DNA of 64,000 nt from Pontederia crassipes. Taxonomy: Eukaryota; Streptophyta; Magnoliopsida; Commelinales; Pontederiaceae. Both the position numbers and the translations under genes were made by a program. Position 1 is the stretch's first letter; the number at the start of each line of letters is the position of its first letter. A model generated the notes under the pieces. The model ran no database searches. It was not told the origin of the DNA and saw nothing but the letters and a program-made list of their open reading frames with translations. Positions 27,683-59,422 of the stretch are shown here, one piece after another. The stretch spans positions 21,960,501 to 22,024,500 of the forward strand of contig CM060197.1 of NCBI GenBank assembly GCA_030549335.1. The letters are read 5' to 3'.

Positions 27683-28979
27683 ATGGGGTCGACTTCTGCC
27701 CAAACAGTCGGCGTTGTTGCTTGCAAGGCCGCCGGGACCGCCGCCATACTCGCCATGGGCACCGCCAACCCCTCCGGCCTCCTGCATCAGACAGATTTCC
27801 CGGACTACTACTTCGACATCTCCAACAGCAATCACATGGTCGCCCTCAAGGAGAAATTCCAACGAATCTGTACTTAAGTTTTCTCTCTACATTTTGCTTA
27901 TTCTAAATTATATTCTACTGTAAATGCTTTTCTGATCACTGCTAATTTCGCCACCTTTAATTTCTGACAATATATATATTGCAGGTGAGAAGACCATGAT
28001 CGAGAAGCGCCACCGATTCCTCACCGACGAGGTAATCAAGGAGAACCCCAACATCGTCACCTACCTCGGCTCGTCGGTAAATGTCCGCCAAGAGATGTGC
28101 GACGTCGAGATCCCTCTTCTCGGCTCCGAGGCCGCCATGAAGGCCGTGAAGGACTGGGGACGCCCTGTCTCCGACATCACCCACCTCATCGTGTGCAACA
28201 GCGGCGCTGCCTCCATGCCCGGAGCCGACTTCGATATCGTCAGGCTGCTGGGCCTCCCAAACTCCACCAGGCGGTTCATGCTCTATCAGACAGGCTGCTT
28301 CGGCGGCGGTACGGTCCTCCGCCTCGCCAAGGACCTCGCCGAGAACAACCCCGGGGCGCGCGTTCTCGCGATATGCTGCGAGATCACGTCCATCGGCTTC
28401 CGCGGCCCCAACGAGGCCGACCTGGAAAACCTCATCAGCCAGGCCTTGTTCGGCGACGGCGCGGGAGCGGTGATCGTGGGAGCCGACGCGCATGCCGGCG
28501 TCGAGCGTCCGATCTTCGAGATTGCTTCGGCGTCTCAAAGGATCCTCCCAGGATCTGATGGCGGGATCGTCGGAAAACTGCGGGAGGCAGGGCTGATGGT
28601 CACCTTGCAGCCGCAGGTGCCGACGCACATATCAGAAAATATAGAGAGCATCTTGACGGAGACTCTGAAGCCACTGGGGATCAAGGACCTGGAACAACTA
28701 TTCTGGGTGGTGCACCCCGGCGGGGCGGCCATACTGGACAAGACGGAGCAGAAACTTGGACTGAAGGACAGTAACAAGTTCTGGGCGTCGAGGGAGGTGT
28801 TGAGGCAGTTCGGCAACATGTCGAGCCCTTCTGTAATCTTTGTCATGGAAGTGATGAAGAAGAGGTCGGAGGAGCAAGGGATGATCACCGCCGGCGAAGG
28901 TCTCGAGTGGGGCGTGCTCTTAGGATTTGGTCCCGGGATCACTGTGGAAACAGTTGTCCTCCATTGCCCAAAGGCTTGA
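27683..28979 (+). CDS. Type III polyketide synthase (chalcone synthase superfamily), non-canonical
   Basis: Exons 27683-27869 and 27985-28979 give 393 residues. The single intron splits a Cys codon (T/GT) at the position conserved in chalcone synthases. The catalytic residues are present: Cys167 (YQTGCFGGG), His306 (VVHPGG) and Asn340 (FGNMSS), plus gatekeeper Phe218 and the GFGPG loop. Compared with alfalfa CHS2, cavity residues differ: Thr132 to Ser, Ser133 to Gly, Thr197 to Gly, Asp255 to Val and Phe265 to Val, while Gly256 and Ser338 are kept. Such enzymes condense a CoA starter with malonyl-CoA units in the cytosol. Loss of Thr197 and Phe265 bulk suggests a different starter or chain length, so I do not call it chalcone synthase. 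Curcuminoid-type or pyrone/long-chain products are possible. Confidence 0.95.
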
Positions 28980-37003: not shown

Positions 37004-37660
37004 ATAATTATATATAGCTAGTTAATTGAATGCTTATGAGATTCCCTAACATTTTTAACGTTGCCTCCCAAAAGACTCTTATTCTCATAACAAAATCCTG
37101 CTTCTCATTTCTAGCATACGTGATATTTTTATATGGTCTCCTTTATTTTAAGATTGGGTCCTACAAAGCTATTAATAATCTTTTTACTAATTTTTTTATG
37201 CATACTATTTGTTCTAGTATATATTCAAGTTCAGATTTTTTTTAGAATAAAAGAAGTTAATAAATTTATATATACGTAAAAAATAGGCATATTGTACCAC
37301 AATTTTGTGCAAACAGCATGAATAATTGTTCTAATTTACTCTTTTATGTTCATGACTACATAAAAATAAGTAAAGAAATAGATTTCTTTAATGTTTCTTT
37401 AATTATAATAAAATGTGGACATAATGAATCTCCAAGTTCTACTTGTTGCCAACGCCAATATATATTAGTAATTTTATTTTTCATGTAACCCTAGAAAAAG
37501 TTAATTATGAATCAAACGAAATTTTTAGTTTCGAAATTCTTTTGTTTTAAAACTTGAAATAATAAAAGTGACGAAAAGGAAATGAAAAATTCAATCTACC
37601 ATTAAGAAGAAGGCCCACATCTGTCAGTGGAGATTAAAATCCTACCATTTGAACAATCGA
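37004..37660. other. AT-rich spacer with second copy of the direct repeat
   Basis: Bases 37025-37165 repeat 34205-34350 (shared CCCTAACATTTTTAAC, ATATTTTTATATG, TCTCCTTTATT). The rest is AT-rich with no gene. Confidence 0.5.
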
Positions 37661-37701
37661 AAACGTATCATAGGCTTGCGGTAGTGAAGGTGGTCACTTT
37701 A

Positions 37702-37752
37702 GTCCCACATGCAGCAACTAGGGAACCGTCGCAGGCCGAGTCACTTTATAAG
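37702..37752 (+). promoter_or_regulatory. snRNA-type promoter of U5 copy 1 (USE + TATA)
   Basis: GTCCCACATGC at 37702-37712 matches the plant snRNA upstream sequence element (RTCCCACATCG) at nine of eleven bases. TTTATAA starts at 37745, leaving 32 bp between them. That spacing is the Pol II class (U1, U2, U4, U5) and not the shorter Pol III class (U6). Confidence 0.82.
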
Positions 37753-37777
37753 GCGTTGGGCTTGGACTTTGAAGAGG

Positions 37778-37902
37778 CACGCAGCTGCGTGGTGAGCACA
37801 AAGCGAACTATTCTTTCGCCTTTTACTAAAGAATACCGTGTGCACGTCACTCAAAGCAGCATACCCTATTTTTAGAGGGCGTCCTTTCTCTTCAGATTGG
37901 GC
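37778..37902 (+). ncRNA. U5: U5 spliceosomal snRNA, copy 1
   Basis: The invariant loop I sequence CGCCTTTTACTA lies in a stem TTCTTT/AAAGAA at 37810-37833. Outward, GCACA pairs with TGTGC, GTG with CAC and GCTGC (37784-37788) with GCAGC (37856-37860), rebuilding U5 stem I. An Sm-like site CTATTTTTAGAG follows, then a GGGC...GCCC 3' stem. The start is set about 32 bases after the TATA box. Both ends are estimates. Compared with the other copies one G is missing just before the Sm site (ATACCCTATT against ATACGCCTATT). U5 aligns the two exons in the spliceosome. Confidence 0.85.
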
Positions 37903-40389
37903 CCCAACAAATCTAATAATAATAATTTTTTATTGATCTGTATAGTTAAAATTTGTCTCAATAAGACGTTTTATATTAAGGGGCTAGTAATAATACTATT
38001 ATATAATATATTGAACAAAGTTATAATATTAATTTAACCATTTAAATATATTTTAAAAAATATGTTTATGATAATAAAAATTAATTTAGAAGAAGTTTTA
38101 TTTTGAAGTAATTTGGTTTAAGATTTAATGAAATATGAATCAGTGAGGTGTAACTTAATATTTAAGTGTAAAAAATTTATCGAGAAAATATTTATTATTT
38201 TTTTAAAAATAGTTTTTTTTACATCATTGATCGGGTTGTTTGTACTTCGTACTTAATTCACATCCATCAGGTGTAATAACTGGAACAAAAAACTAAGAAC
38301 AATAAATAGTATTTAAATGAGAAGGCAAATGACCATTTGATATTTAGGACGTCGGAAATAGTATTTAAATGAGAACGTAAAATTTGTTGCTAAACAAAAC
38401 TAAGCCCATGGGCCTTCAGTTGCGGAGTCCGCTTAATGAGCCCAACAGGCTTATGAAAAATGCAAGAAAGGAAACGGGCTTGAAAAGGAAAGCCCAAGAT
38501 CTTTCACAGTGATTTTTTATGAAATAAATTTCTCGGGTAACTATATCACGAGCATGTGCTCCCAATAAAAGGGAATAAGATTTTACTAAAAGGAGGCTAA
38601 AACAAAACAAAACAAACGGGATATAAAGCTTTTTTTTCTTTTAAACTGTGGAGTTATTTTCTAATGATAATAAAAGTTTTAGGAGGTAGCTGTATAAATA
38701 TATTAGACGAAAATTCGATAAAAATGGAGAAAATAAAAATGTCTAAAAAACATTTGGATGGGAACTTTTAAGTTATCGAAAATTAATATATTAGATAAAA
38801 AAGTTTAGATTTGACATTTGGATGAAAAATGTAATAATGAAAAATTTTAAAAATTAATTTGATAGATAAGTTTTAGTAGGTGTTTGGATAAAAAGTAAGA
38901 ACTAAAAATATAATTTATTATTTTTTGAGGTATAAAATTACAATAAATTAAAATATTATGTAATTATTTAGTTAAAATAATAATAATAGCATATAAAAAA
39001 TATTATACATAATTATGAATTTAAAATTGATTAAATAATAAGGTGCTTTGTAATATATTAATATTAATTTTGATTAATTTTTTCCATATGTTAATTAATA
39101 TTATAATTTACCAAAAATATTTATATTAAGTTAAAGAATTTATATTATAACATGAATGATAATATATATTAATAATATATTATAATTAATTATTACTTAA
39201 GGTAATATAAAAATAGTTTATAAATAATATTAACATTAAATTATAATTAATAATATTTTACTAATCAAAATATAATAAAGAATTGAAGAAAAAAGTAAAA
39301 AAAAGTCCTGTTAAAAGTTCTCGTCGAAATCAAGAAGTTGTGAGAACTAAAGTTCTCACTGTGTCATGTGATCGAAATCCAAGTTCTCGTCAGTTCGAGT
39401 GTTTGCCAGAATTTATGGAAACAACCAAGTTTTGGGTCTTAGTTCCATGCCTAACATTGCCTTAGTGAATATGTGACAACTCAAATTTTGAAGTAAGGAC
39501 GTTTAAGTCATTGTAGAAAATCATATGAAACTTTAAACTAAAGTCTATAAAAGGTCTACAAACTTCTTTTTTATTCTCTCTTTTTTTTTTTATTTCTCTC
39601 CTTCCATATGATAGCTACAATCATAAAACTTAAGGATGAAGAAATAGAAGAATAAGGAGGAAGATAAGAACAAAGGAGAAGATGATCAACAAAGAAGAAA
39701 GAGACCAAAGCCTTAGATACGTAAAGGAGATCCAAACCTTTCTTTCTTATCTAATGGATTTTATGTTTGAGTTGAGAGATCTAATAACACCTTAGTTCTT
39801 AATTAAGATTGCGATCAATGGTGCATTGATCATGTGCTTAGATCTACATATTTTTATACTTAGATCTATATGTTTATGTGCTTTGCAAATGATATTCATG
39901 CTCTCTAAATCCAATGTTGTATATATTTTGGGGAAGAATCCTAGAAATTTAATTGATGTTATGATTTACATATTTTCATCCATGTTAAACACTCTATAAA
40001 ATGTCCTTAGAAATTATTTATGATTAATACTAAAAATATATATAATTTTAATGATGAAATAGAACTTCTCTACGTCGGCATGAGCAAAGTAATTGATCGT
40101 TGTCATATTCATTGAACAAATAACGATTTATTGTTTGTTATTGTCATCTAATCATCTGATCCATTGATGTTATTTGTTGACTAAAGTTATATGTATTGAA
40201 TAAAGTAAAGATTGATTGTAATTATTGTCGAATGATTGAATGTTATTCAATCTCGAAGTGTACCTCAATGACCATCTCTCATATTATCATTGGCCTTTAT
40301 CATTATCTAGCGAAAGTATTAAAGCTTCATTATGATTTACATGTTTATTTTATTGGAAAAATTTATCTATGATTATTTATAATGTCTAC

Positions 40390-41115
40390 TCACATATGAA
40401 CCGAAAAGCTCATAGAAGAATTGTCTTCCTTCATCTTATTTCTACCGGAAGAGGCTAATGATAGAATTTGCAGTGATAATGCTCGGATGGCTGACATGCA
40501 CATGGAATTTGATGTAATAAAAATGGTACTTTTCCTGAAGCATATTTGAGACTTTGTATTAATTCTTTTATTTTCATGCTTAATCAATGTTTTATCCTGA
40601 TATTGCATCATTTTACATATATTTATAATGTTATCCTTTTTAGAGTTTGTCTTCTCTATGGTTGTTACCAACCCTGTGGCCTGAATCTCTGCAGAATTTT
40701 CAGATGCCCTATGCCGAAGTTCACGAGTATGAAGACTCGATCTTACTTTTTCTAGAGTAATTGTGTCTCTTCCGATGATAACAGACTGAACGAAATTTTC
40801 GTATGACAGAGGAAGAGACATCAACAGAAGTAGGACAGCATCTTCACCCTCAATCTTAACATCGATATTTCTCATTTCCATCAACAAAGAATTTAACTGA
40901 TCAAGATGATCTTTCATAGGGGTACCTTCTTGCATGCAGAGAGAAAACAAACGTTGCTTCAACAACAACTTGTTGGTGAAAGACTTCGTCATATATAAAC
41001 TCTCGAGTCTCAACCACAGACCAACCGTCGTTTCTTGATCGGTGACTTCGATAATCACATCGTCCGTCAAACACAACAAGATAATTGAGTGCGCCTTTTC
41101 TTCCTGTGCCGCCAA
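40390..41115 (-). pseudogene. Truncated Ty1/copia gag (UBN2 type)
   Basis: A 241-codon frame carries gag motifs of the copia type: WLRLESLYMTKSFTNKLLLK, the LNSLLMEMRNIDVKI segment and LLMSLPLSYENFV. The N-terminal part of gag is absent, replaced at about 41120-41130 by U5-related sequence. The zinc knuckle and everything downstream are also missing. The frame's last 80 residues lie inside the left inverted-repeat arm, and a matching fragment occurs at 56400-56634 on the plus strand. No LTR is seen, so it is a remnant. Confidence 0.78.
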
Positions 41116-41192
41116 ACTTGCGATGCCGCAACTAACAAACTATCGCAGGCCGAGTCTCTTTATAAGGCGTTGGGCTTCGACCTTGTTGTGGC

Positions 41193-41320
41193 ACGCAGCT
41201 GCGTGGTGAGCACAAAGCGAACTATTCTTTCTCCTTTTACTAAAGAATGCCGTGTGAACGCCACTCAAAGCAGCATACGCCTATTTTTAGAGGGCGTCCT
41301 TTCTTAATTGATTGGGCCCC
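41193..41320 (+). pseudogene. U5: U5 snRNA copy 2, probably inactive
   Basis: Similar to copies 1 and 3 from the TATA region (TTTATAA at 41158-41164) to the 3' stem. Loop I reads CTCCTTTTACT instead of CGCCTTTTACT, changing an otherwise invariant base. The stem sequence after it also differs (GTGTGAACGCCAC). The upstream element is gone: similarity starts at TGCCGCAACTA near 41123, and GTCCCACA is replaced by gag-related DNA. It is probably not transcribed from a normal snRNA promoter. Confidence 0.8.
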
Positions 41321-41795
41321 AACAAAATAAATTAATAAAATTTATACTTTGTCGGGGGAGGTGTGATATTTATACTAGAGATTATAGTGATTAATGAGTA
41401 TGCATCTCCTTGATTACTATTTATAATTCAATAAATTATATATTTCAAAATAATACAATATATATATACACATAGTGTAGAGCTAATTGTACTTATTAAA
41501 TTAATAAGTATATGTTAAATAGTAAAAATGATTAAAAATAAGATTATGAATGGTCGTGATCAAACTATATTAATAAAAAATATATGATTATACAACGATT
41601 ATAATTTATTTAGATACATTTTTATTATCAAATTACTCAAATAGATATACATTTAAAAAATATATAATCATTTTAATTATAAATTATAATCATTAAATTA
41701 ATTAATAGAACGGTTCTTATTAATCTCTGAAAAATATTATTTAAGACTTATAATGATTGAGCTAGTCTTATAATTAGATCACAACATATACTTCA
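41321..41795. other. AT-rich spacer
   Basis: No gene, RNA or repeat boundary was recognised between the U5 copy 2 and the next LTR. Confidence 0.5.
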
Positions 41796-44166
41796 TATAA
41801 CGCCCCCAAAATTGCTCCTCTTGTCACGTAGGCAGTCAGGTTGATCCTGGGAACGCTACACTGTCTACTACACTATTGACCATGACAATTCAACAAAATA
41901 GCATACGTGGCATCAATATAATAAGAAAGGAAAAAAAACTTTAATGCGGAAGTTCAAAAGGTGGAATGTCAAGAGACATCATTAATTCATGTAGTAGTGA
42001 GCAAGTAAGAAAGAGCCATAGCTTTAACAAATTCGACAGAAAGAAAGATTCAATATGCGAAAGAGCATGATGTTTTCAATAGAAGAGAACATGCTGAAAC
42101 ATAATAAAATTTCAAGGGTCTGTGACAATAATTTATGTCATGTGCAGCATTCTCTAAGCTCTGTGCCCTCCATCACCTCCTCAGTTAGGATTCTCATTTG
42201 GAAAATCCCAATGCAGGGGAATCGAATACCCATGAGCAAAAAGTCCAGTACAATAGCAATGTAGACGATGAAATAAGGATCAATGATAATCAAATATAAA
42301 TGTGTCAATGATGAATATTGATATATTATGCCTTCTATGCATTCACTATGATGGGTCAGATATCATGCTTTAACTATAACAATAACTGTACTTTGTTCCT
42401 TACCATGACTGTACATTATCTTTACAGTACTCTGCGTTGTCTATATCATACTATGTTTCATATTTTATAATACTATGTTCTATGCTTTACTTTATAATAC
42501 TCTACTTTACATTATTTTACTATGAGTTGTACTACGACTTTTACAATACTATAATGTCCTTAATGTTAGTTGTCCTATGCGAGCTCGACTTTATTATATT
42601 AGGATGTCAAAGGCGCCTCTCTGAATCTGTAAAGCCAATAGGCCCGTAAAGAGAAAGGGGTGGGACAATGCGTCACCCAATTCGAAATGCAGGAACAGTG
42701 GTCATTTAAGAACCTGTAGGTTCACTGTCTCCTCAGCTAGCTACCTGTCCCTCTGGCTCAATACTATGTTCTTTGGGAGAAGGAGTATGACCAATGCACC
42801 ACCCTTCTTCGAGACACAGGTAGGAGAGGACCTGTAGTCTCAGGAACAGTGGTCATTAAAGACCAATATGTTCGCTGTCTCCTCAGCTAACTACCTCTCC
42901 CTCTCTATACCATACCATGATCTTTGTTCCGTACAATGGGACAGCACATAGCAATTCCGCAGCTTTATCTTTACTTTTCTTATCTCTGATTATCATGATG
43001 TCTATGAATCAGACCCCAGTGGGCAATAATGTCTGTACAATAGGACTTGATCGGTTACAGACGGACTGGTTAGAGTCTCCGGTTAGGATTCATGAGTCGG
43101 ACTCAGATCGGGTAAAAATCCGATTCGAACTATGTCAATATCAAAAATAATTCAATGTCGATCTAGGGTTTGAGGGGTTTGAACCGATTGATTTGGACCG
43201 ATGGTTTGATTGAACTGGACACCTTATTCGATTGTCGAGCGTCTGTCGGATCGGTCGACCATGCACATGGGCCGGTCGTTCGGTGACTCTACCGATCTCA
43301 GGGTCGGTCGACCGCTCTGGTGATCGGTCGACCGACCGTAAAATCATAAGGACGCGACTGTGCATCGGATCGGTCGACCGCTCGGAAGACCGGTCGGCCG
43401 ATTGTGCAGACGAATCTATCAGATGACAGATAGATCGGTCGATCACTTTGGTGAAGCCAGTCGACCGCTCGTCGGGAACTTGTGAAAGTTCTTCGCATGG
43501 ATCGGTCGATCGTTCCTAAAAATCGGTCGATCGGTCCCTGCGATAAAATAGGGCCGCCAGATTATTCCTCATTTCCGGCGGCCTTTCGACCATCAAACAA
43601 TGACGATCACAATACAAAAAATATAGATAACAATATCAAGATCATGATGGACTATTCCTATGCATTAAACGATCAACATTTCGTCGTCTAGGGATTTAAA
43701 ATGCTAGGATACCTTTGTTCGTCATTTTTTTGGATTCGTCGGATCGCTGTCGTCGTCCGGTCGGTCACCGGTCGTTCCTGACCGGAGAGAAAGGTGCATC
43801 GGGTCCTTGTGAATGTCGAAAAAGTGCGGCCGTGCGTCAGAGGGTCGTCGTCGCGTGCGTCGCCCCTGTTCTGATCCGCCGTGCGTCGTTCGTCGGAGCA
43901 GAAGAAGGAGAGGAAGACAAGGGGAGAGCAGCGGCCGGGCAGGAGTCCAAAGGGTGCGAGGCGCCCCTCTCTTGTCCCCTTTATAGTCCTGGCCGGCCGA
44001 ATTCGAAAACGGCTGCCATTAGGGGAGGAATCTCCTCCCCTGTCCGTCGTTTCTTTTCGATCCGTTTCCCTTTTTTTATTCGAATTTCTTTCCATAAATG
44101 CCCATAAATGTGATTAAATTTTGATTTTCGAATTTATTTCCTTCTTTGAGAATTGCATGCGCTACA
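41796..44166 (-). repeat. Solo LTR on the minus strand, probably Ty3/gypsy
   Basis: Read on the minus strand it starts TGTAGCGCATGC and ends GGGGGCGTTATA. Flanks CTTCA (41791-41795) and CTTTA (44167-44171) match four of five. A minus-strand TATA box (ACTATAAAGGGG, near 43978-43989) precedes a CT-rich leader, as expected for U3/R. Inside lie a cluster of CGGTCGACCG palindromes (43190-43540) and a duplicated segment with CAGGAACAGTGGTCATT and CTGTCTCCTCAGCTA (42690-42900). No internal region adjoins it. Confidence 0.6.
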
Positions 44167-45620
44167 CTTTAAATTAATATGCAATTATTGTTTAAATTTA
44201 ATAAGTAAAATTAGCATATATATATATATATATATATATTCCTTAAATTAAAATGTAAAATCAAATAAACATTTCTTTCTAAACAAAATGAAGCCCATGG
44301 GCCTCCAGATAGGCAACTGTCAACCAATGTCAATTATGAGGTTTGCCTTGATGTAAGACGAGTAATGGGCTTGAAAAGGATAGCCCAAGATCATCACAAC
44401 TTTGTCTTATGCATTTTTGCTCAAGTGAAAAGCCATAATTGCGTTTTTTTTTGTTCTGGAAACAAATATTCTAGAGATTTAATTTATAGAATTATTTTCC
44501 TGTTATTTCCTCAGTCTACTATTTATTTTTAGTTGATCTTTTTCTTACGAAAAAAAAAACTAAACGGTCAATTAAATATCTTTTAAACATGTGATATTAT
44601 GCTTTGGATAGAGGAGAAGTTTAAGCTAATCTTAGTTAAGAGAGAAAAGATATCAAAATTTACATTTGTTTTCAAAAAAAAAAGAAAAAAGAAAAATAGC
44701 TTCGTATCCAAACAAGATTCAGTTCATAGCTTCCATGAAAGGAACTAAATCGTGATATTAAAAGTACAAACTTTTTAATCGACGAAAACATTATCTTGTT
44801 GACCATTTTTTTTTCCAAATGCCGAATAAAAACTAAAAAGGTTAATAATGATTAATTACTTTAAAAAGAAACAAAGAAATAAATATACGATATCTCAACT
44901 TGTTTTTCTCGGATCAAAGTTGTCATTTGTGATAACAATAATTCCGTGCCATCTTTTTCTGCATGGGCAAGAAGAGAAGAACACGGCAGCTGATCCATCC
45001 ACTAAGGGGTCCCTTTCCGATACCCGTGGCAGTTTCAACTTTCAACCAATGCATGACAGAATTAATTCAATGGGGTTGGCCTCTCCATAATTATCCCTTT
45101 ATAAATCAAAGATTTCGAATTCAACATGAAGAAAAAAATATTTGCCGACTAATAACAAAACTGGATCCATCTAATTGAGATATTTCATGTTATTTCTACC
45201 AAATATTTCATCTAATTGTACATATGATCGAAAGTAAAATAATTGATGTTACTTTTCTTAACGATTTGAATTTTCAAAAAATGATTGGCTCGTCAATAAT
45301 TTTATATTGTATCTTTATTTTTGTTCTTTCTCAAATTTATCATCCATTAATACATTCCAAGTTATGTTTAATAACAAATGGTAGCGTTATTTTTTTGTAG
45401 GTTACTAAATATGTTTTTATTGTGGCATGTTGTCATGCCAACTTTTTTTTGTAAGAAAATAGATAACTTTTAAAACAAAATAAGTATGGTACTTTATAAT
45501 AAACTGGCAACCTTTTACTTAGCTATTTGACATGATATATTTTCATATATAACCTATTTGCACACAAGCGATAATTACAAAAGATTATCACTGGGTGTAA
45601 TTATTCTTTTCTAAAACAAA
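44167..45620. other. AT-rich spacer with a fragment shared with the inverted arms
   Basis: 44275-44400 resembles 38385-38505 and its mirror at 58530-58640: AAGCCCATGGGCC, then GGGCTTGAAAAGGA and AGCCCAAGATC. A (TA)n run lies at 44218-44239. No gene was recognised in the rest. Confidence 0.5.
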
Positions 45621-46274
45621 TTAAAAATAAATTATCATCTTCTTCGATTGACACTTGAACGCGATCTCTGCAAAAAGTTCCTTAATTTCTTCGCTTACCG
45701 CCTGCACAAATAGCGTTTGAAGTTGAAGTAGAGGCGCAACACCCTGTTCTAGAACATGCATTTGAAGCCCTTCTTCGCGGAGACCAAGCGTTATTGGCGA
45801 TCCGAAAGGCCACGTCTTCTTAGGAAGGTTTTGACACAAAAAAGAAAGTGATCCATGACGCTGCCAAGTACCTGACACTATGGACAATGCATAACGTGAA
45901 TGGAACAAAAGTATCTTGCACAACGAAATATAATGAACAATCACATCTAATCTATATGAAAATATAACTAAAGCAATTAAACATATGGCAATAAGCTCAA
46001 ATGACATCAAAGTATACTCTAGCAAATAACTCAAATACATAACATGACTCGAAGTTTGAAAAGGATAACTCACTTCATAATTTTCTTCATGAGAGAAGAC
46101 ATATAACATGAACCCACACAATCCATAATAAAGCCCATATGGTGACAAATACATAACCAATGCTAAAAGATAATAAGGCTCGACATAGGACTGACATCGT
46201 GTGCCAACCGTCGCCATGAGTGTTCGTCGAAAGGAACAAATGAAGGCGAAATCTATTTGAATGAATTTACCCAA
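45621..46274 (-). CDS. Unidentified open reading frame of 217 codons
   Basis: An uninterrupted frame from ATG at 46274 to a stop at 45621. The first 130 residues are rich in Tyr, Leu and Ile and look partly membrane-like. The last 80 (from GTWQRHGSLS to EEIKELFAEIAFKCQ) look more like a globular or amphipathic helix segment. I do not recognise the family. It lies among LTR remnants with no promoter or splice context, so it may be a chance frame or part of a decayed element. Confidence 0.2.
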   Translation of the reverse strand: MGKFIQIDFAFICSFRRTLMATVGTRCQSYVEPYYLLALVMYLSPYGLYYGLCGFMLYVFSHEENYEVSYPFQTSSHVMYLSYLLEYTLMSFELIAICLIALVIFSYRLDVIVHYISLCKILLFHSRYALSIVSGTWQRHGSLSFLCQNLPKKTWPFGSPITLGLREEGLQMHVLEQGVAPLLQLQTLFVQAVSEEIKELFAEIAFKCQSKKMIIYF

Positions 46275-46456
46275 TTGCTCACCACCGACCTCATCTCACT
46301 CTTTCGTACATACATAAACCAGATGCAAAGGAGGCACACATCTCATTAGTTGTATGTAATGATCATAAAACTAGGCAATACAATGATCCATATAGCACTT
46401 CAATTAAGCCAATATTGATAAAATCAATAAGGATTTCATCAAACATTGAGAAAAAT

Positions 46457-46938
46457 TAGGGGTCTTCACGGTCGGGCCGAGAACAAACCCGACCGACCCG
46501 ACCAAATTTGGCCGGGTCGGATCGATTCGGGTCAAGAGGTCTGGGAGGTCGAATCCGACCCAATCTGACCCGGTTCGGGTCGGGTTACCCGACCACCCAT
46601 TTTTTTAAAAAAAAATTTGCTTACTATTTTTTATATTTTTCTTTAATATAAAAATATTATTCTAAAAGTATAAAATAAATTTTCTAACTGTTTAATATAC
46701 TTTTGGCACTTAAAATATTTTATTTCAATTTTTAAAATTTTTAAATTAAATATAAGCTTAAATTTGAATTAAAAAAATAAAAAAAATAAAAAACTCGGGT
46801 TGATCGAGTCGGGTCGGGTCGACTCGGGTTGGAAAAATCCATCCCGTACCCGACCCGACCCATGGTCAAGTCGAGTTCGCGTCGGGTCGGGTCGGGTCAT
46901 CGGGTTCACGGGTCGACCCGACCTGATGAACACCCCTA
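46457..46938. mobile_element. hAT-type MITE with perfect 8-bp target duplication
   Basis: The left end TAGGGGTCTTCA and right end TGAACACCCCTA form terminal inverted repeats. AGAAAAAT flanks both sides (46449-46456 and 46939-46946). Both ends are dense in CGGGTCGGGTCG and complement words, enclosing a 170-bp AT-rich centre. It has no coding capacity and belongs to the same family as 29311-29748. Confidence 0.88.
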
Positions 46939-46946
46939 AGAAAAAT

Positions 46947-49287
46947 TCTCAATTTCAAATTCCAACTCAATATGTCTATTGGATTAAATCTTTTAATGCA
47001 AAATTATCCATGCCCATAGTGACGAAAAAACATCCAATTGCATTCATCCTTTAATGCACAATAATTTCACGATACCAATATGTTCTTGCCACTTAATCAA
47101 TTATGTTGATTAGGTTCTCAAATAATCTTTATAAATCATTATCCATCCATTGATACTACTTGGTTGTCCTTATGCCATTGTCTGGCCAAGTCAGAGTCGC
47201 ACTTGCACCTAAAATGTCATCCTGAAAGCATGTCACAACAATTACCCTCTTCGTACGGGCACACACGACGATAATGAATCAAGCAAGGGCCAAGTACCTC
47301 AAGGTGTCGATGTTCATTTTAATCCTATGACTTAACATGTAATTCAGATTCTAGTTGTGTCAACTAGTCATGCATAGCATAGTACAATCATATCGCATCA
47401 TAGTAGTACATGTCATGGCATAATATGATACAACAACATCAATTGATAACAATAAACAATGTAATATATGAAAATTCAAGCAAAACATTACTTGATGGGC
47501 TGCTACAATTCAAAGGGGAACAATATGGTTGGATTGTCTCAGCTATGGTTCGTCCGTAGCTCAAGGACAACACTCCCCATTTCAAACCCCCTGCGTTGTA
47601 GTTAACATGTGTGTGCTATGGTCTCTATGTCATGGCTATGTCCTGACCCTAGCCTTCAAGCATATCACTCCTTTCATGAGTGTTGCCTTACGATTGTAGC
47701 TGGCACACTATGATTGTGACGTTCTCACTATGATCTGCCATAGTGAAGCAGTATATCATGGAAAACTCAATTTGCCGAGATTTTTTCTCTCTTCTTCTAC
47801 AATCTATTAATTATCACACGAAGATTTATATCATCTATTTTCTAGAGCATGGATTCTTAGTTTTTTTATCTACATAACATCATGATAGCAAGAGTTCATC
47901 ACATTGAAGGAAAAGAGTGTAAAATCGATTGAACCACCTAACTTGGGAATATAGGCTGGATCATCGCGCTTGAACGCCGAACGAAATGCCCAAACAAAAC
48001 TTTTCCTACTCTACTTCAGAACCTGCGTTGGGTCGTAATCCAAAAACATCTATTCAAACTCTAGAATGAAACTCGAGTTGGGTTACATGAAAACTAGACC
48101 GAGTTTACATCGAATTCAGGTCGAATTCAATGTTGGCAAAAATATGTCAGAAAAATATTCTCGAACAGGCAAAACTCGAGTGATTTTTCGTCAACTTTAG
48201 CCGAGATTTTGAATAAAATGACATGATCTTGAACAATTATGAACTTATTTATGGTTCATAGAAGAACAAAAAAAATATATTTTAATCTTTCTTAACTTCA
48301 TTATTCTATTAAGAAAACACATCCAAAAGTGAACTTGAAATATGTACGTACTTATCCAAACAAAACTATTTGAAACTCAAAATTTTAGGCAAGTTTTCCG
48401 ATGACCATGCTTGTTTTCTGGCAATGACTCCGGCGTTCCTTAGCGGAGGGATGTTCCATGAAGAGATGATCGAATGTTTCAGCCATGCACATGCACCAAG
48501 GAGGGAGAAAACATAAGACAAAGTTGAAGGAAAAATACAAACGTGAAGAAAAAAAAGATGATTTGGAAGAGACCTTTAGGATCTTTTTTATAAAAAAAGT
48601 TTCTAGTTCTAATCTAATTAGAACTCCTAATAATAATTTGTCTCCATAATTCATCTTTTATTTTTCACAAATTTTTTAATAAATAATTAATTAAAATTTC
48701 TATTTCTTGATTTTCTTAATTAAAATAATAATTTATTATTATTTTATTTCTAGATATTTTTGTCTTTAGAAAAATCAAAATTTCAGCATTCTTAGGAGTC
48801 CTAATTCAATCCTACATTAAATTTCATCCCTTATCTTCTTTATATTATCTTTTCATTATTCTATCTCTCTTAAATATAATTATTCCTGAATTTTAAAAAT
48901 TAGATAATTAACTAATATTCTAATCTTTTAAATTTCGGAATAAAATAATATTATTTTATCTTCTAGATATGTTTAAACATAAAACTTTTATTTTAACTCT
49001 CATTTGATGTCCTTTATATCCTACACTTTTAATTAGATTAAAATTGAATTTTGAATTCATAATCTTATTATAATCTGCAACTCCTAATCTAATTAGGAAT
49101 TATCTTTTCCTATCTCTCATCTAATAATATTTTTATTTTCATTGAAACTTTTTTATCTTATCTTTTTCTCTTCTTTTATTATTTATCTAACTATACTTTT
49201 ATTTATTTTCAATCTTATCATTCTTTAACAAATCTTAAATTTTTAATTATGAAAACTAATTTTTAATTAAAAAAATTTTGGGATGTT
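46947..49287 (-). repeat. Probable decayed Ty3/gypsy LTR, minus strand, left edge unknown
   Basis: Read on the minus strand, 49287 starts TATAACATCCCAAAA, close to the TGTAACACCCC-type LTR start. About 600 bases of AT-rich U3-like sequence follow, like the start of the solo LTR at 23947. GC-mixed sequence continues to about 47000. I found no clear LTR end or target duplication, and the hAT MITE at 46457 may lie inside it. Confidence 0.35.
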
Positions 49288-50879
49288 ATAATTTTTTGGC
49301 TCAAAACCGTCACACTAAGATTCAAGAAATGGAAGAAGAAAACATCATCCTCGTTATAGGAATGTTTAGAATGGGATTAGAAATGATTTCACCCTATTAC
49401 ATATCTTAATTCATAAGTTCTTAAAAATCTCTTCTTCTTCTAACCTTCCTCCCAAATGGACATCTTCTCTAACTGGTCCTTGCTCTTTTTTTTTTTTCCT
49501 CCTCAAGCTCTCTATGGCAAGGAAAAAGTGACTTCCGAATGGAAGAGGAAAATGGAAAGGGTTTTGAGGTTTAGCAGTATTTTCTACCACTTTTTGTCAA
49601 AGACAGAAATGCCTGAACCTCAACTATTGAGGATATTTTTGTCACATCCAAAAGCTGAATGTTATAGTGAGTTCGGTTGGGGTCATGCTTGGACACAATA
49701 TCACGTGTGACGATTAAGCGAAGGGACACCTAGTCTAACATGATTGGGAAACATGATTATGCCGAGAGTTATTTTTATAAACTTTCATTCAAGAACATGA
49801 TAAGAGTGTTTAATGAGATATCTGGATTGTGGCATTAGTGCGTTAATGCACTGATAGATTAGCGCTTAATGTCCGAAAGGACACTCGAGAATTCATGGGA
49901 CATTTACTCCATGTTCAAGGTCAGATATTAGAATTAGAAAAATTTAATTGTATTATATATCTAAAAACATAAAATACATATGGGGTTAGAAATACACTAG
50001 TGAACTCCTAATTAGTGTACCCTAACTAAAAGAATTTCAATACAAAACTGAAAATGTTAAAGATGTGTTCTACAAATAACTTGATCTTTTGATGATCTTA
50101 AAAGATTTGCCACAAAGATGAATAATTTGATACTCCGTAATATTTTACAGTAGAAGACCGCTGCATATGAGTGTAGTGAGATTTTGCACGTCTGGAAAAC
50201 GCCGCGAGAGTTGGACACCCTGTTGAAGTATTTGGGTTTCCATGGCACAAGTATTGGGGTTTCCATATCATTCGTACTTCAATTCTAATTGTTTTTTTCG
50301 TTCCTGCACGAATTGAACGTTTTGAGTTCGAATTGATTCTTTTAAATCCTGCTCTGATTCGGCCTCTCAATGAGTATTTTTTTTTTCGAATTTTCAACAT
50401 GTGATTTCGCAATTATTTACCACATGAACTTGGAACAGAGTAGACACGAGCGTTCGACAAGGGGCGGCACCTAACCCCGCGTAGTGGTCTCGGCCATCCG
50501 TCCAACATTTTTCGTCATCCCAACACAATGCTCGCCCACAGATTCAGTGACCTCGATTCCCTACGCTCCTCCATTGTCTCCTCTCCTCCACCTCCAAGGT
50601 CCCATTTTGCATGTGATTACAGTGACATACTGCTGTGCTTCCCTCTTCCATCTAATGCGCCTACCACAAAGATCTTTTCTTTTTCTTTTTCTCAACCATA
50701 AATAATAATAATAGTAACTCATCAAGTGTTGATCCATTACGGCGTACATGTTAAGAGGTACGACAACCATATAAAGTAAGTGGAATCAGAAGAAGAAAGA
50801 GTCAACGCCGTATTGTCATCGTCTTCTTTCTCTGAATTAGAAGTAAGACGGGGGAAGGGCGAAGGAGGCGGCTACGGGC
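49288..50879. other. Spacer and upstream region of KAI2
   Basis: No gene was recognised. The last 400 bases before the KAI2 start become GC-richer, with CCTCC runs, and probably hold its promoter and 5' UTR. No convincing TATA box was identified. Confidence 0.5.
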
Positions 50880-53800
50880 ATGGGGCTACTGGAGGAGGCG
50901 CACAACGTGAGGGTGGTGGGGAGGGGGGAGCGGGTGATCGTGCTGGCGCACGGCTTCGGGACGGACCAGTCGGTGTGGAAGCACCTGGTGCCGCACCTGC
51001 TCGACGACCACCGCGTCGTGCTCTTCGACAACATGGGCGCCGGCCCGACCAACCCGGACTACTTCGACTTCGACCGCTACGCCACCCTCGAGGGCTACGC
51101 CCTCGACCTCCTCGCCATCCTCGAGGAGCTCCGCCTCGGCCCCTGTGTCTTCGTCGGCCACTCCGTCTCCGCCGTCGTCGGCGCCATCGCCTCCATCCAC
51201 CGCCCCGACCTCTTCAGCAAGATCGTCATGCTCTCCGCCTCCCCGAGGTCCGTTCTCTCTTCCCCCCTTGGTCCCTTGAATCCTTCAGGAAAAACGTCTT
51301 TCTTTCTTCCTTTCTCACATCTGTTGCTCTTTTGTCCTTCTGCGCGCATGTCCTGTTGTTAGATGTAATCAAGTTTTTGTCGAAATAACTTAAAAATTAG
51401 AGAACTGCGACTTGTTTTTGGCTTCCTCTCTGCTCTGGACAAACACAGGAAAAGCAAAAATTATGAGCAAATTTGGGGTTCCTGCCGCAATCTTTCGCGA
51501 ACAGTTTATGTTGGTGGGAGCTGAAGTGGATCTCGACAATTGGCACGACGACTTGAACGCTTTAGATTTGAGTCAGGCAAAGGGAATTTCGTGCTCTAAA
51601 TCTCCTGTGGACGAGCGTTCTCTGTGGGGAAAGAAACTGTTGGGATTAGGTATTAGGGGTTGGGATTAGCAACCATCCCCTCTATTGCCAAGGGTTCAAT
51701 TGCCTACCTGTTCATCTTCGTATCTCCCATGTTGGGATAATAATCTCATAATTCGAGCACTACTTTTATTACCATGCTGTCAAAAATTCCCCAACCAGGT
51801 AATTAAGTGGTTGGTACTTTGGCCGAACTGGTAGAAGGCTTCATAATACACCACTAAGAAAGAAAAGAAAGACCAAGAACAGTTTCTTACAGGTCATAGG
51901 ATATTTGCATGATGTCAAATATACCTGATAGCCAATTTCCACTTCTCTTAACTATGCATCACCCATCTTTCAGCGTGTCTTACATGTCCAGGTATGTGAG
52001 GAGCTTGTTGCCACGTTAATTTGAATGTTCGCACATCTTTGTCTTCATCGTCGGGCCCCTGATCTGTCATGATGCTGCAGTGAGAAAATCATGTATCTTC
52101 TTCCCTTTTTCTTTTGCATTTCAGGCTGTCACTCGAGGTCAATTTTGCTGTTATCATCTCAGTGTATCTTTGTCCGTCATCTTGTTATCTTGTGTTTCCT
52201 CTAATATGTCACTTGATCATTTACCTTTGTTGTCTGCAAACAAGTTCACCTTCCTCTCTTCATTTTGGGCTCACCCTTTTTTACCTTATTTACCTCTTAT
52301 TGCAGTATTCTACGCTATCTTCGTCTTTGTAAACATAGGCCATCATAAGTTGCTGCCATGTCATAAATTCCATCTCATACTTTTAATCACAATAACTTCT
52401 ATTAATTTCCTTTAGTTCCTATAGCCATGAACCAGTGGTTTTGAAAGTGAAAAACACTAAAGGATCAAGGACGCAAGGAGTAAACAGTAATGCCAGATTT
52501 ATGTGTATACATATGCATGAAATATATTCGTAGCCAATACATATGGACGAAGGAAAATTCAGTGCTAAAAAGCTCCTTGGCTGTCAAGAATCTGAGAGGC
52601 ATTCTGTAGCCATGTTTTGTAATATATATGTAATACTTTTAACAAGTTAAAGACTTTTCTTCAGTTTAATTTTTAAAGATTCATTATGGTAGGGAGTAAA
52701 TTAAAGATGAATTTAGTATGAATTTTAAATGAAGGAAACCACATGCCTTAACTAGAAGAGTGTGTGGGTAGGGAGGAAAAAGCTTATTTTTGTAAACATT
52801 ATTTAGAAGCCGCGTCACCACTACCATATGTGACAAAAGAACCAAAATATTCACAAAACTACTAGTGATTTATGTATGCCTGTATTAACAAATCTTGAAA
52901 CAGCTTATGCTTAACTGAATGTTCATTGCCCACATTTGCTAGGTGGTTGAATTAATTTGAACGGGTTTTCAAGTTGGTAAAGTACAATGCTGCTATTGGT
53001 TAAAAGCTCTTCTGGTGTCATATATATTATGACATCTTTGAAATTGTAGGAACTTATAAATAATCAAATATATTTGGCCAAGAAATTGTATGCATGCATG
53101 AATGCTCAAGTTTGGCCGTCAACTGCATGATGCCCACATCCTGTGAACATTTAATTTTTGGCTTCTCTTGCCAAAGTACGATCCGTGAGTATGCTTGAAT
53201 GTCCCTAATACGTTGATAGGTTGACCACTTGCTATTTAAACTTGATGTTTCTTATATCACAGTGAACTTGGTTAGATATACAATAATGATGGGTTCAGTT
53301 TCTCTTGACGCTGATTAGTGAGAAAGCTTATCTGGTGTGTTACAATCTGATTGTTTACGGAATTTTCATCACTCATCGGCTATATTTTCTTGTTAGATCC
53401 ATGATTTGATGATTGTGTGAGATGTCATACTCAGTATATAAACATTAACAAAATATATGATTGGTCGTTGTTTGTTTTTGATACTCTATGGCACAGCTTG
53501 ATCTTATTATTTTCGAGGTTCATTTTACTGACTTTTAGAGCAAACATTGTGCATCAGATAACATGGTTTATTGTTGCGCTTTAACAGGTATTTAAATGAT
53601 GTGGACTACTTAGGGGGGTTCGAACAAGAAGAGTTGGACCAGCTCTTTGATGCTATGTCATCAAACTACAAGGCGTGGATTTCTGGATTTGCACCATTAT
53701 GTGTGGGAGGGGATATGGATTCCATTGCAGTTCAGGAGTTCAGGAGGACTCTTTTCAACATCCGTCCTGACATCGCTCTGACTGTAGCCCAGACCATATT

Positions 53801-54125
53801 CCAGAGCGACGTGAGGCATCTTCTGGGACTTGTTACAGTCCCTTGTCACTTTCTCCAGAGCACCAAGGATCTCGCGGTCCCAGTCGTAGTTTCTGAGTAC
53901 CTGCATAAACATCTCGGCGGCGAGTCCATCGTGGAGGTGATGTCTTCGGAGGGCCATCTACCACAGCTGAGCTCTCCAGACATTGTCATTCCTGTCCTAC
54001 TTCGCCATATTCGCTATGACATTGCAGTTGGAGAATTGAAGCGTTATTTGGCAAGGATTGAAGATAACCTGGCTATGTACTCACGAGTCCTTTTATCTCA
54101 TCTGTGGTGTAAAAAAACATTATAG
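50880..54125 (+). CDS. KAI2: KAI2 (D14-LIKE) karrikin receptor, alpha/beta hydrolase
   Basis: Exons 50880-51247 and 53588-54125 join as CCGAG/G inside the SASPR-YLND motif, the intron position of KAI2 genes. The intron is 2340 bp. The catalytic triad is Ser95 (GHSVSA), Asp217 (KDLAVPV) and His246 (EGHLPQ), and Phe134 is kept. Family words include [41 protein letters not shown] and [15 protein letters not shown]2 binds karrikins and an unknown endogenous ligand and, with MAX2 and SMAX1, controls germination, seedling light response and mycorrhiza. Usual length is about 270 residues; this frame runs to 301, adding about 31 residues after the normal end at RHIRYDIAV. Exon 1 is very GC-rich, exon 2 much less so. 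Confidence 0.95.
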
Positions 54126-54974
54126 ACTACGTGGAAGGATGTTGATCTAGAGGACCTTAACCTGACGAATTAAATGATGTGCAGTTTCTTAATTGATTAT
54201 GGCATCCTGATTTGTTTCAGGAGACTTTCTTGTTTCTAACTGCTGCATGCACCCACATCCACATGGCAATATGCTCTTATGTTTCTCTATTGTCATCTGT
54301 CATCTGCACCCCAACTCATCCGTCTTGAAAGTTCTTTTTTTAATCAGGTTTTGTACAAATGTTCTTTGATGAGCTTGTGCAGATTTCGTGTGAACCCCTG
54401 CATAATACATTTAATTTAGTCCAGACTATTATTGAGGGCTTAAAATCTTGAGATAATTAATATTTCATTTAATCTAACATGATGTAATGAACTATGCGAG
54501 AGCAGAGTTGCCTAACAGTTCACATAAGGGAGAAAAGTGTTCAGATAGTAAATATAAAGATGTTACTAAATGCGATAGGTGGATAGGAAAATCAAATGTA
54601 AAGTTGACTCAAATTATCAAGAGATAAGTAGTCAACAATAATGATAAGAAGAAGAAGAAGAAGAAGAAATCTATTATATAAAAAAAACTGAAGAAGAGAG
54701 GAAAAAAAAAGTTCATATATAATCGTTTCGCCAGAACAGAAATGGGCACATCAAATATCGTGGTCCACTAAATTACCAGTGCGCAATGGCAGACTAAGAA
54801 ACGTCTCTTCCATTGGAACATTGCTGATGAGGCAGGCAGCCATCTTCTGCTTGATTTGGACCGAAGATGATGCCACTCAGGACGTCGATGTCATGCCACT
54901 GTACACCATGACTCAGTTCATGAGATCAAACAGCAGGTAAAAACTTTAATGGTTTTAGAATGAGGCTCTCTCTC
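54126..54974. other. Spacer between KAI2 and the zinc-finger gene
   Basis: KAI2 3' flank followed by AT-rich DNA with a (GAA)n run at about 54647-54668. No gene was recognised. Confidence 0.5.
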
Positions 54975-54985
54975 TATATATATAG
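54975..54985 (+). promoter_or_regulatory. TATA box of the C2H2 zinc-finger gene
   Basis: TATATATATAG lies about 70 bases before the start codon chosen at 55047, leaving room for a leader of about 40 bases. Confidence 0.55.
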
Positions 54986-55046
54986 TTCCATTTTCAGAAC
55001 TAAATTTGTCCACCAAGTTTTTGAAGCTCCTGCTACTAAATTGCAT

Positions 55047-55472
55047 ATGGAATGTAATGATGCCGACCTCGCCCTCTGCCTCGTCCTGCTGTCGCATGGC
55101 GGCGACCACAGCCGGGTCGGAACGGCGGTGCCACAGCGATGGGGCCGCCCGTCGGAGCCCCTCCGCCACAGGTGCTCGGTCTGCGGCAAGGCGTTCACCT
55201 CCTACCAAGCGCTCGGAGGGCACAAGTCCAGCCACCGGAGGCCCGCGGCGTGGACCGACTCGACGTCGACGTCAAGCTGCGGCGCCAGGGGGCAGCACCG
55301 GTGCACGATCTGCGAGAGAAGCTTCGCGACGGGGCAGGCGCTGGGCGGGCACAAGAGGTGCCACTATGTAGAAGGCTCGTGGGGGAATCGGCATTTCGAT
55401 CTCAACCTGCCGCCATTGCTGATGGCTGCCGACGACGAAAAAGAGACGAGCCCCCGCTCTTATCGCTGTTAA
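55047..55472 (+). CDS. C2H2 zinc-finger repressor, ZAT type (two QALGGH fingers, EAR motif)
   Basis: An intronless gene of 141 residues. The start at 55047 is chosen because it gives the [19 protein letters not shown] opening, an L-box-like segment of the C1-2i class. An upstream in-frame start at 54960 would place the TATA box inside the coding region. Finger 1 is [20 protein letters not shown] (43-63, ending H) and finger 2 [20 protein letters not shown] (86-106, ending H), both with the plant QALGGH motif. An EAR repression motif FDLNLPP is at 117-123. Such proteins are nuclear repressors, often induced by drought, cold, salt or wounding. The exact orthologue cannot be named. Confidence 0.93.
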
Positions 55473-56392
55473 GAGGCCAAAATTTTATTTGTTTTCGTGA
55501 CTTCTTTTTTTTCCTTTTTCTTCTTTTTCGTTATTTATATTATTTCCAGTTGGAAAAAAAAAGGTTCACAAGTAAAAGTTGCTCGATTCATAATTCATAA
55601 TTAATATATTATTTCGTTATTTTTTACGCCTTCTGCTCTGTTTTTGATGTTGATGATTATTGTGTGAAAAAAAAGGTCATATGCATGAAAATCCAAACTT
55701 CCACTGTTTTCCATTTTTGATGTCATGCAATTTCGACACCTTGTCCCAACACCTCGTGCAATCAGAAAACAATATTTTTTGCTAATTAAAAAAAATATAA
55801 AGAAAATAACATAAGTATTTTGCACTCATTTTTTTCACAAGTATTCTAATTAAATATTTTATTTTGTTTTAAAAAAAATGTTTGTAATAGTGAAAAGATG
55901 ATAGACATGTCAATAGGCCACATTAATAACTTATTCAGTAACCTACAACACTAGAAAAATACAAGTAATTTGAAGATATTTTCAAAGGATAAATTTGAGA
56001 AAGGACGAAAAATTGAAATATTCATCTAAATTCGTTTTTATAATTTTGAGAGCTTGGAGTAACCATGTAACCAATGCAACTAGAATGAATGATTAATGAT
56101 TGCACCCTACTTCCTTCCTGCTAAAGGCATTGAAATTTTAATTTAATATAATTTTTAATAGATTCTATCATCACTTGATCACACTGCAAAATTAGCATAA
56201 TGATGTGCATGCATTATGCATCCCATGAGTCATCCAAGAAAACATTTCTGAACTTATCATATTCAAATATATTTTTGTTTATTGATGATAGAAATATAGT
56301 GCCTACAAAAGTAGTTTATGTTACGTCATAAAGATCAATCTATAAAAATGCTAGATTTTCACTCGTCAATAAAAATGACACATCAACTAGAC
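55473..56392. other. Zinc-finger gene 3' flank and AT-rich spacer
   Basis: T-rich 3' flank, then AT-rich DNA up to the right inverted-repeat arm. No gene was recognised. Confidence 0.5.
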
Positions 56393-59155
56393 TATTAAAT
56401 ATATGCAAAATGATGCAATACCAGGATAAAATATTGATTAAGCATGAAAATAAAAGAGTTAATATAAAGTCTCAAATATGCTTCATGGAAAATACCATTT
56501 TTATTACATCAAATTCCATGTGCATGTCAGCCATCCGAGCATCATCATCGCAAATTCTATCATTGGCTTCTTCCGGTAGAAATAAGATGAAGGAAGACAA
56601 TTTTTCTATGAGCTTTTCGGTTCATATGTGGTAAACATTATAAATAATCATAGATAAATTTTTCCAATAAAATAAACATGTAAATCATAATGAAGCTTTA
56701 ATACTTTCACGAGATAATGATAAAGACCAACGATAACATGAGAGATAGTCATTGAGGTACACTTTGAGATTCAATAACATTCAATCGTTCAATGATAATT
56801 ACAATCAATCTTTACTTTATTCAATACATATAACTTTAGTCAACAAATAACATCAATGGATCAGATGATTAGATGACAATAACAAATAATCAATCGTTAT
56901 TTGTTCAATGAATATGAAAATGATCAATTACTTTTCAATGTCGCATCCCTTCCTTAATTTAGATTAGTTACTTATTAAGTTATAAAATGTATCGATATAG
57001 CGCCATGCCAATGATTGGTGATATATCACAACAACTGTCTATCTCTTAAGGACCAATCACGCTCATGGCGACGTATAGAAGTTCTATTTCATCATTGAAA
57101 TTATATATTTTTTAGTAGAAATCATAAATAATTTCTAAGGACTTTTTATAGACATTCATAGAGTGTTTAACATGAATGAAAACATGTAAATCTTAACATC
57201 AATTAAATTTCTAGGATTCTTCTCCAAAATATATACAACATTGGATTTAGAGCATGTATATCATTTGCAAAGCACATAAACATATAGATCTAAGTATAAA
57301 ATATGTAGATCTAAGCACATGATCAATGCACCATTGATCGCAATCTTAATTAAGAACTAAGGTGTTATAAGATCTCTCAATCCAAGCATAAAATTCATTA
57401 GAGAAGAGAGAAAAGTTTGGATCTCCTTTACGTATCGAAGGCTTTGCTCTCTTTCTTCTTTGTTGATCATCTTCTCCTTTGTTCTTATCTTCCTCTTAAT
57501 TCTTCTATTTCTTCATCCTTAAGTTTTATGATTGTAGCTATCGTATGGAAGGAGAGAAATAAAAAAAAGAGATAATAAAAAAGAAGTTTGTAGACCTTTT
57601 ACAGACTTTAGTTTAAACTTTCATATGATTTTCTACAATGACACGTCCTTACTTCAAAATTTGGATTTGTTACATATTCACTAAGGCAGTGTTAGGTATG
57701 GAACTAAGACCCATAAATTTTGTACGAGAACTTGGATTTTTATCATGTGACACAAATTGAGAACTTTAGTTCTCATAACTTCTCGCTTTTGGCAAGAACT
57801 TTTTTTACTTTTTTCTTCAATTCTTTAATATATTTTTGAATTAGTAAAATATTATTAATTATAATTTAATATTAATATTATTTATTAACTATTTTTATAT
57901 TATCTTAAAAAATATCTATTATAATATTTTATTTATTAATTATCATTCATGTTATAAAATAAATTCTTTAACTTAATATAAATATTTTTGGTAAATTATA
58001 ATATTAATTAACATATGAAAAAATTAATCAAAATCAATATTAATATATTATGAAGCACCTTGTTTTTTAATAAATTTTAAATTCGTAATTACATTTTTTA
58101 TACTAATAATTATTATTTTAACTAAATAAATACATAATATTTTAATTTATTATAATTTTATACCTCAGAAAATAATAAATTATATGTTTAGTTTTTATTT
58201 TTTATCCAAATACCTACTAATATTTATATAAATTTCTATTATTACATTTTCTATCCAAACGTCAAACCTAAAATTTTTTATTTAATCGATTAATTTTCAT
58301 AACTAACGAGAAAAAAAGTTTCCATCCAAACTCATCCTAAATGTTTTTGAGACATTTTTATTTTCTCCATTTTTATCAAATTTTCTTTTATTATATTTAT
58401 ACAGCTACCTCCTAAAACTTTTATTATCATTAGAAAATAACTCCACAGTTTAAAAGAAAAAAAAAAGGTTTATATCCCGTTTGTTTTGTTTCCTTTTTTA
58501 GAAATTTATTTCATAAAAATTCACTGTGAAAGATCTTGGGCTTTCCTTTTCAAGCCCGCTTCTTTTCTTGCATAAGCCTGTTGGGCTCATTAAGCGGACT
58601 CCGCAACTGAAAGCCCATGGGCTTAGTTTTGCTTAGCAACAAATTTTACGTTCTCATTTAAATACTATTTCCGACGTCCTAAATATCAAATGGTCAATTG
58701 CCTTCTCAATTATGTTATATTATATTTATTGTTATTAGTTTTTTGTTCCAGTTATTACACTTAATGGATGTGAATTAAGTACGAAGTACAAACAACCCGA
58801 TCAATGGTATAATATAGGTCTTATTATCAAGGTTGTCAATATCCAAGGATCGATCTATCTACTAATAAAAAATAGTTTTTAAAAATATAACAAATATTTT
58901 CTTGATAAATTTTTTACACTTAAATATTAAGTTACACCTCACTAATTCATATTTTATTAAATCTTAACCAAATTACTTCAAAAATAAAACTTCATCTAAA
59001 TTAATTTTTATTATCATAAACATATTTTTCAAAATATATTTAAATGATTAAATTAATATTATAACTTTGTTCAATATATTATTATTACTAGCCCCTTATT
59101 GAGACAAATTTTAACTATACAGATTAAGAAAAAACTTATTATTATTAGATTTGTT

Positions 59156-59283
59156 GGGGCCCAATCTGAAGAGAAAGGACGCCCTCTAAAAATAGGCGTA
59201 TGCTGCTTTGAGTGGCGTGCACACGGTATTCTTTAGTAAAAGGCGAAAGAATAGTTCGCTTTGTGCTCACCACGCAGCTGCGT
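59156..59283 (-). ncRNA. U5: U5 spliceosomal snRNA, copy 3 (most intact)
   Basis: On the minus strand it carries the invariant CGCCTTTTACT loop in the TTCTTT/AAAGAA stem and the GCACA/TGTGC and GCTGC/GCAGC outer stems. The Sm-like site ATTTTTAG and a 3' stem follow. Compared with copy 1 it keeps the G before the Sm site, so CGCC...GGGCG can flank that site. This is the copy most likely to be functional. The ends are estimated from promoter spacing and copy conservation. Confidence 0.86.
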
Positions 59284-59310
59284 GCCTCTTCAATATTGAA
59301 GCCCAACGCC

Positions 59311-59360
59311 TTATAAAGGGACTCGGCCTGCGATAGTTTGCTAGTTGCGGCATGTGGGAC
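59311..59360 (-). promoter_or_regulatory. snRNA-type promoter of U5 copy 3 (USE + TATA)
   Basis: On the minus strand GTCCCACATGC (59350-59360) is followed by TTTATAA (59311-59317), with 32 bp between, exactly as in copy 1. Confidence 0.82.
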
Positions 59361-59422
59361 TAAAATGACCAGAAGGAGACCGTTCTCTTCACTACTTTAC
59401 TGCCGTAAGCCTATGACACATT

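Follow-up and report, generated by a model that had tools for sequence, protein, structure and literature searches.

The 64,000-nt stretch of Pontederia crassipes DNA analysed here (the window, C15:21960501-22024500, in a genome of 1.13 Gb and 43 contigs) contains three sequences that resemble U5 small nuclear RNA (snRNA) genes. Are these a divergent class of U5 RNAs, as the original prediction suggested they may be, or ordinary members of the family, and how did they come to lie in their present arrangement? The copies are new members of a known family, and their local history can be read. Taken as a whole, the reading that copies 1 and 3 are ordinary U5 genes, that copy 2 is a pseudogene, and that the arrangement arose by an insertion, whose course we infer below, has in our estimate a probability of about 0.85.

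Identity of the three U5 copies

A cmscan search of the whole window with Rfam 15 gives three matches to the U5 model (RF00020, gathering score 40), with E values from 2.1e-10 to 8.6e-13 and all covering model positions 1-117, the full length of the model. Copy 1 lies at 37783-37902 (+ strand, 81.0 bits), copy 2 at 41197-41313 (+ strand, 72.8 bits) and copy 3 at 59167-59279 (- strand, 83.3 bits). The matches are thus at all three predicted places, with 5' ends within a few bases of those proposed, and at 72.8-83.3 bits against 40 they are significant matches to the U5 model. U5 is the only Rfam family above its gathering score in the window, and within 37000-60000 no other family has a match at E 0.1 or better.

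U5 RNA is defined by an invariant loop I (GCCUUUUAC) on its stem. Copies 1 and 3 carry this loop, while copy 2 has a U in place of the first G. Copies 1 and 3 have the longer loop-I word TTTCGCCTTTTACTAAAG without change, and copy 2 has it with a single G-to-T change, the original prediction having noted one mutated word; with up to two mismatches allowed the word is uninformative, the pattern giving 87 matches and the reversed control 168. An ATTTTT Sm-like run, also predicted for each copy, and a 3' hairpin are present in all three; the run occupies 37868-37873 (+) in copy 1 and 59188-59193 (-) in copy 3. The fold z-scores of copies 1, 2 and 3 are -2.84, -3.00 and -3.38, with 1, 1 and 2 of 200 shuffled sequences folding equally well. 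Short protein-like frames do overlie the copies (for example 82 aa at 37627-37875 and 72 aa at 41089-41307); nothing suggests that these are genes.

Copies 1 and 3 also have the promoter of a plant snRNA gene. The upstream sequence element (USE), TTAGTCCCACATG, occurs in exact form at two places only in the window, 37699-37711 (+) before copy 1 and 59351-59363 (-) before copy 3. Each is followed by a TATA-like element, TTTATAAGG, at 37745-37753 (+) and 59309-59317 (-), respectively. The distance between the two elements is 33 nt in both copies, a spacing that in snRNA genes denotes transcription by RNA polymerase II (Pol II), and a Pol III type was set aside on that ground; the predicted arrangement is therefore present, with a spacing one nucleotide longer than the 32 proposed. 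Copy 2 lacks the USE and so this promoter structure. From these features copies 1 and 3 appear to be normal, intact U5 snRNA genes of the plant Pol II type, and by analogy with the known family they would be transcribed and functional.

Copy 2 as a pseudogene

The sequence before copy 2 is a promoter remnant (41119-41196, +) of copy-3 type, which starts with the last letters of the USE and retains the TATA-like word TTTATAAGG at 41159-41167 (+). The rest of the USE has been replaced by retrotransposon sequence, the breakpoint lying inside the element. Three changes in the RNA, at +36 (41232), +53 (41249) and +61 (41257), are private to copy 2 among the 35 aligned rows. Position +36 is the first base of GCC in loop I; it and +53 are invariant in the other 34 rows, in which +61 is C or T. 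On the structure, the change at +61 disrupts a pair and that at +53 gives a wobble.

The original prediction did not notice that the loss of the USE affects the very copy whose loop I is mutated, nor did it see the inverted duplication described below. Because both defects fall on the same gene, and because the changes at +36 and +53 affect otherwise invariant positions, copy 2 is most likely a pseudogene; lacking the USE, it is probably silent and decaying. It is extremely improbable that the remaining TATA box still drives transcription of a U5 RNA with altered loop I, giving a variant small nuclear ribonucleoprotein with an effect on the choice of exons in one tissue or another. Expression of copy 2, should it occur, would make it a naturally occurring U5 mutant in loop I.

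The U5 family in the genome

Genome-wide, at least 35 U5 loci lie above the gathering score, the highest at 95.4 bits, with the window copies ranking 18, 25 and 28. The number is a lower bound drawn from 46 scored candidates; a further partial U5 fragment (L048, 43.7 bits) lies above the gathering score and outside the 46. The exact 18-nt loop-I word occurs 34 times in the genome, 31 of them inside the 35 loci. The remaining matches (L044, L045 and L046) are partial or chimeric and were not counted as U5 loci; cmscan gives no U5 match at E 0.01 in L044 or L045. A USE with no more than two mismatches precedes 31 of the 35 loci (24 with the exact element), and in 30 loci a TATA-like word stands 31-34 nt behind it by a loose test that allows up to three substitutions. 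USE, exact loop-I word and Sm-like run occur jointly in 29 of the 35. Besides copy 2, the loci without a USE are L038, L040 and L043.

In the tree of U5 copies, those of contigs C1 and C2, C3 and C4, C5 and C6, C7 and C8, C9 and C10, and C11 and C12 group together, as do those of C15 with C16, which suggests pairs of related chromosomes; 16 of the 32 inner branches are weak and 7 are well supported. The window copies share a clade with copies on C9, C10, C15 and C16, some of its forks being weak.

This count and alignment of the family bears directly on the proposal that the window copies diverge unusually from known U5 RNAs and form a distinct variant class with a function of its own. One loop I is indeed altered, and the copies depart from the Rfam consensus and have the ranks by score given above. 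However, the altered loop I sits in the copy without a USE, and over +1 to +92 copy 3 has one difference from each of six loci (L016, L018, L022, L027, L028 and L030). Copy 2 aside, 13 of the other 34 loci are at a distance of 0-3 from copy 3 in these first 92 nt. The stem word GTGTGCACG of copies 1 and 3 is the commonest type, found in 15 of the 35 loci, with GTGCGCCCG in 12 and neither in 8. On these distances and the tree a separate class was rejected, and we regard it as highly improbable; the proposed unusual divergence is likewise not supported.

L041 (C15:34241825-34241934), a U5 locus, has USE and TATA elements and neither an Sm run nor a 3' end, with an abrupt change of sequence after +77; it is probably another U5 pseudogene. 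Directly downstream of the USE-less U5 pseudogene L040, at 430-489 (-), there is a match to the Twister-P1 ribozyme of 54.9 bits, and L045 contains another of 63.5 bits at 62-121 (+); both are just below the gathering score of 67.2. In L046 (C14:3647475-3648492), at 388-530, a U6 snRNA (81.2 bits) is followed without a gap by an incomplete U5 (37.9 bits, under the gathering score), forming a U6/U5 chimera whose sole full-length match in the genome search is itself; it is surrounded by copies of a dispersed repeat (142 matches listed). At 726-780 of the same locus a USE-like and TATA-like pair (ttagtcccacatg, tatata) stands beside that repeat, with no recognised snRNA behind it; the pair may be of a common kind of plant repeat.

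Conservation and structure of the RNA

Across the 31 promoter-bearing copies, conservation is highest in the USE (mean 0.88 over the ten columns of its 3' part), in the TATA box (0.79) and in the RNA from +2 to +91 (0.84-1.0), and drops to 0.46-0.59 between these elements. In the alignment of 35 rows, 94.1% of cells form standard pairs compared with 92.4% in shuffled alignments, none of 500 of which reach this value, and 25-52% in slid versions. Changes on both sides of a pair are found in twelve cells, compared with 5.1 in the shuffles (0 of 500 as high). A hairpin follows the Sm run in most loci, its sequence varying between types.

Over the RNA (+1 to +124), copy 1 departs from copy 3 by a single substitution, a C-to-T change at +65 that gives a G-U wobble, and by the loss of 1 nt ahead of the Sm site. 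The divergence of the duplicated arms in which they lie predicts 7.3 substitutions (P = 0.006 for no more than one change, 0.024 for no more than two). This likeness is consistent with constraint on the RNA; gene conversion between the two copies could be an alternative cause.

These data also address the view that none of the three copies is active, all being U5 pseudogenes or carried along by a repeat. The copies do sit in a duplicated segment adjoining retrotransposon sequence, and the activity of copies 1 and 3 is argued by analogy. Nevertheless, both have an exact USE and a TATA box, the RNA is more conserved than its flanks, and both promoters have counterparts on C16, all of which make this view very unlikely. 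That the conserved block is merely part of a transposon was likewise rejected: the U5 family is not confined to one transposon or tied to one repeat, and only the filler beside copy 2, described below, is repeated sequence.

Inverted duplication and comparison with C16

An inverted duplication of about 3 kb contains copies 1 and 3, and its arms extend over 37691-40625 (+) and 59371-56396; the latter arm (56396-59371, -), on the side of copy 3, is the presumed source. Over 2530 aligned sites the arms show 149 differences, besides 409 gap columns. Site types place the start of the copy-3-derived part of the copy 1 arm within the U5 promoter or gene, and the sequence upstream of it is older local sequence. 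Between this arm and copy 2 lies a filler of about 0.5 kb (40626-41119, -; ends approximate to a few bases) of copia-type gag sequence (PF14223, E 2.1e-31), with relatives 85-87% alike at many places in the genome. Its ends were defined against five repeat copies, and the right end and the copy 3 promoter sequence meet within the USE and have about one base in common.

Contig C16 has a region with blocks of similarity to the window, and in it two inverted U5 genes, L027 and L032, separated by about 33 kb. The filler has no counterpart in the C16 stretches read (34366000-34385900 and 34389000-34408900). Upstream, L027 resembles copy 3 (504 of 541 ungapped sites) and L032 resembles copy 1 (647 of 708), while downstream L032 resembles copy 2 (233 of 270) and copy 1 resembles copy 3 (825 of 873). 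The site types follow the same pattern: copy 1 is L032-like at -69, -59, -55 and -54 and copy-3-like from about -11 onward, and copy 2 has copy-3-type sites at -69 to -54 and, from +131 onward, sites mostly of L032 type. These reciprocal likenesses and site types indicate that two flanks were exchanged reciprocally around a U5 gene. In the distal flank, 50 sites join copy 1 with copy 3 against C16, compared with 6 and 17 for the other groupings, which dates the event to after C15 and C16 separated.

Proposed origin of the arrangement

The ancestor would have had two inverted U5 genes. After the C15/C16 split, about 3.4 kb of mainly copy-3-derived sequence would have been inserted in the window's chromosome at the other U5 gene. 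The inserted molecule may have consisted of the U5 of copy 3 and its downstream flank, closed by the copia-gag filler onto the copy 3 promoter just inside the USE, and on the simplest reading it entered by one homologous exchange between U5 genes; a template switch during repair would be expected to give the same product and explains the data equally well. Copy 1 would then combine the old promoter with the copy-3 downstream flank, and copy 2, 3414 bp further on, the truncated copy-3 promoter with the old downstream flank.

The flanks of L032 are open to another interpretation, in which copies 1 and 2 are an ancestral tandem pair and the C16 counterpart lost the intervening segment by recombination between its two U5 genes. 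Such a loss would also leave one gene with the upstream flank of copy 1 and the downstream flank of copy 2, as L032 has. It does not, however, account for the 50 sites at which the downstream arm of copy 1 goes with copy 3 against C16, nor for three letters of the promoter, at -59 to -54, common to copies 2 and 3 and missing in L027, L032 and copy 1; both sets of sites point to an event after the split. To rescue an ancestral tandem, a later gene conversion across nearly 3 kb would be needed, and we consider this alternative unlikely.

Several observations weigh against the joint reading of gene identities and insertion history. The copy-3 origin of the copy 2 promoter has modest support, since over its 74 nt 6 sites speak for it and 4 and 3 for other groupings. 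Copies 1 and 2 do not switch type at exactly the same place, since copy 2 is not copy-3-like at -17 and -15; the reading therefore has to assume either a conversion tract or that copy 3 mutated later. The expression of copies 1 and 3 and the silence of copy 2 are predictions from sequence. The plant snRNA 3' box, given as CA(N)3-10AGTNNAA (PMC5079582), was not found above chance in the family: its exact form follows 1 of the 35 loci compared with 2.2 in shuffles, and with one mismatch 27 of 35 compared with 22.5 (shuffle maximum 28). Finally, two-sided changes occur in 4 pairs, a number reached in 53 of 500 shuffles, and pair 13-62, which is GC, AU, GU, CG or UA across loci, has A opposite A in the window copies and is unpaired in this way in 16 of 34 distinct rows.

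Other features of the window

For context, ten frames of the window were searched against Pfam, five of them giving no match at E 0.01. A 347-aa open frame at 27936-28976 (+) matches the N and C domains of chalcone/stilbene synthase, frames at 1028-2745 (-) match the NPH3 family, and a frame at 54924-55469 (+) has two C2H2 zinc fingers.

Relation to known systems and significance

Multi-copy U5 genes and snRNA pseudogenes are already known; the literature search returned few papers on plant U5 and none on Solanum U2-U5 clusters. In Arabidopsis, 14 U5 genes are described, each of which has a USE and a TATA box, together with local snRNA clusters (PMC545797). The family described here is like it, and like RF00020, in model match, loop I, Sm run, 3' hairpin, USE, TATA box and multiple copies with local clusters. 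It differs in having more loci (35 matches, about 29 intact-looking), in lying in a genome whose large contigs form pairs and in a copy, copy 2, without a USE. Among snRNA paralogues of fly and mouse, which undergo concerted evolution, U5 varies mainly at the 3' end with the 3' hairpin kept (PMC4291461). The same variation is seen here, with the difference that one exchange is readable from reciprocal flanks. An insertion-type duplication through circular DNA has been described in human (PMC7188851). The proposed history resembles it in that a copied segment, made into a closed molecule by end joining, would have been inserted at a new place; the insertion here would use homology between U5 genes rather than a cut of the circle.

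The value of the result is mainly one of annotation, in that the locus holds two probable U5 genes and one pseudogene that are invisible to a protein-gene finder. Beyond this, it offers a readable case of turnover in an snRNA family, in which one exchange between inverted paralogues plausibly gained a gene and stripped another of its promoter.

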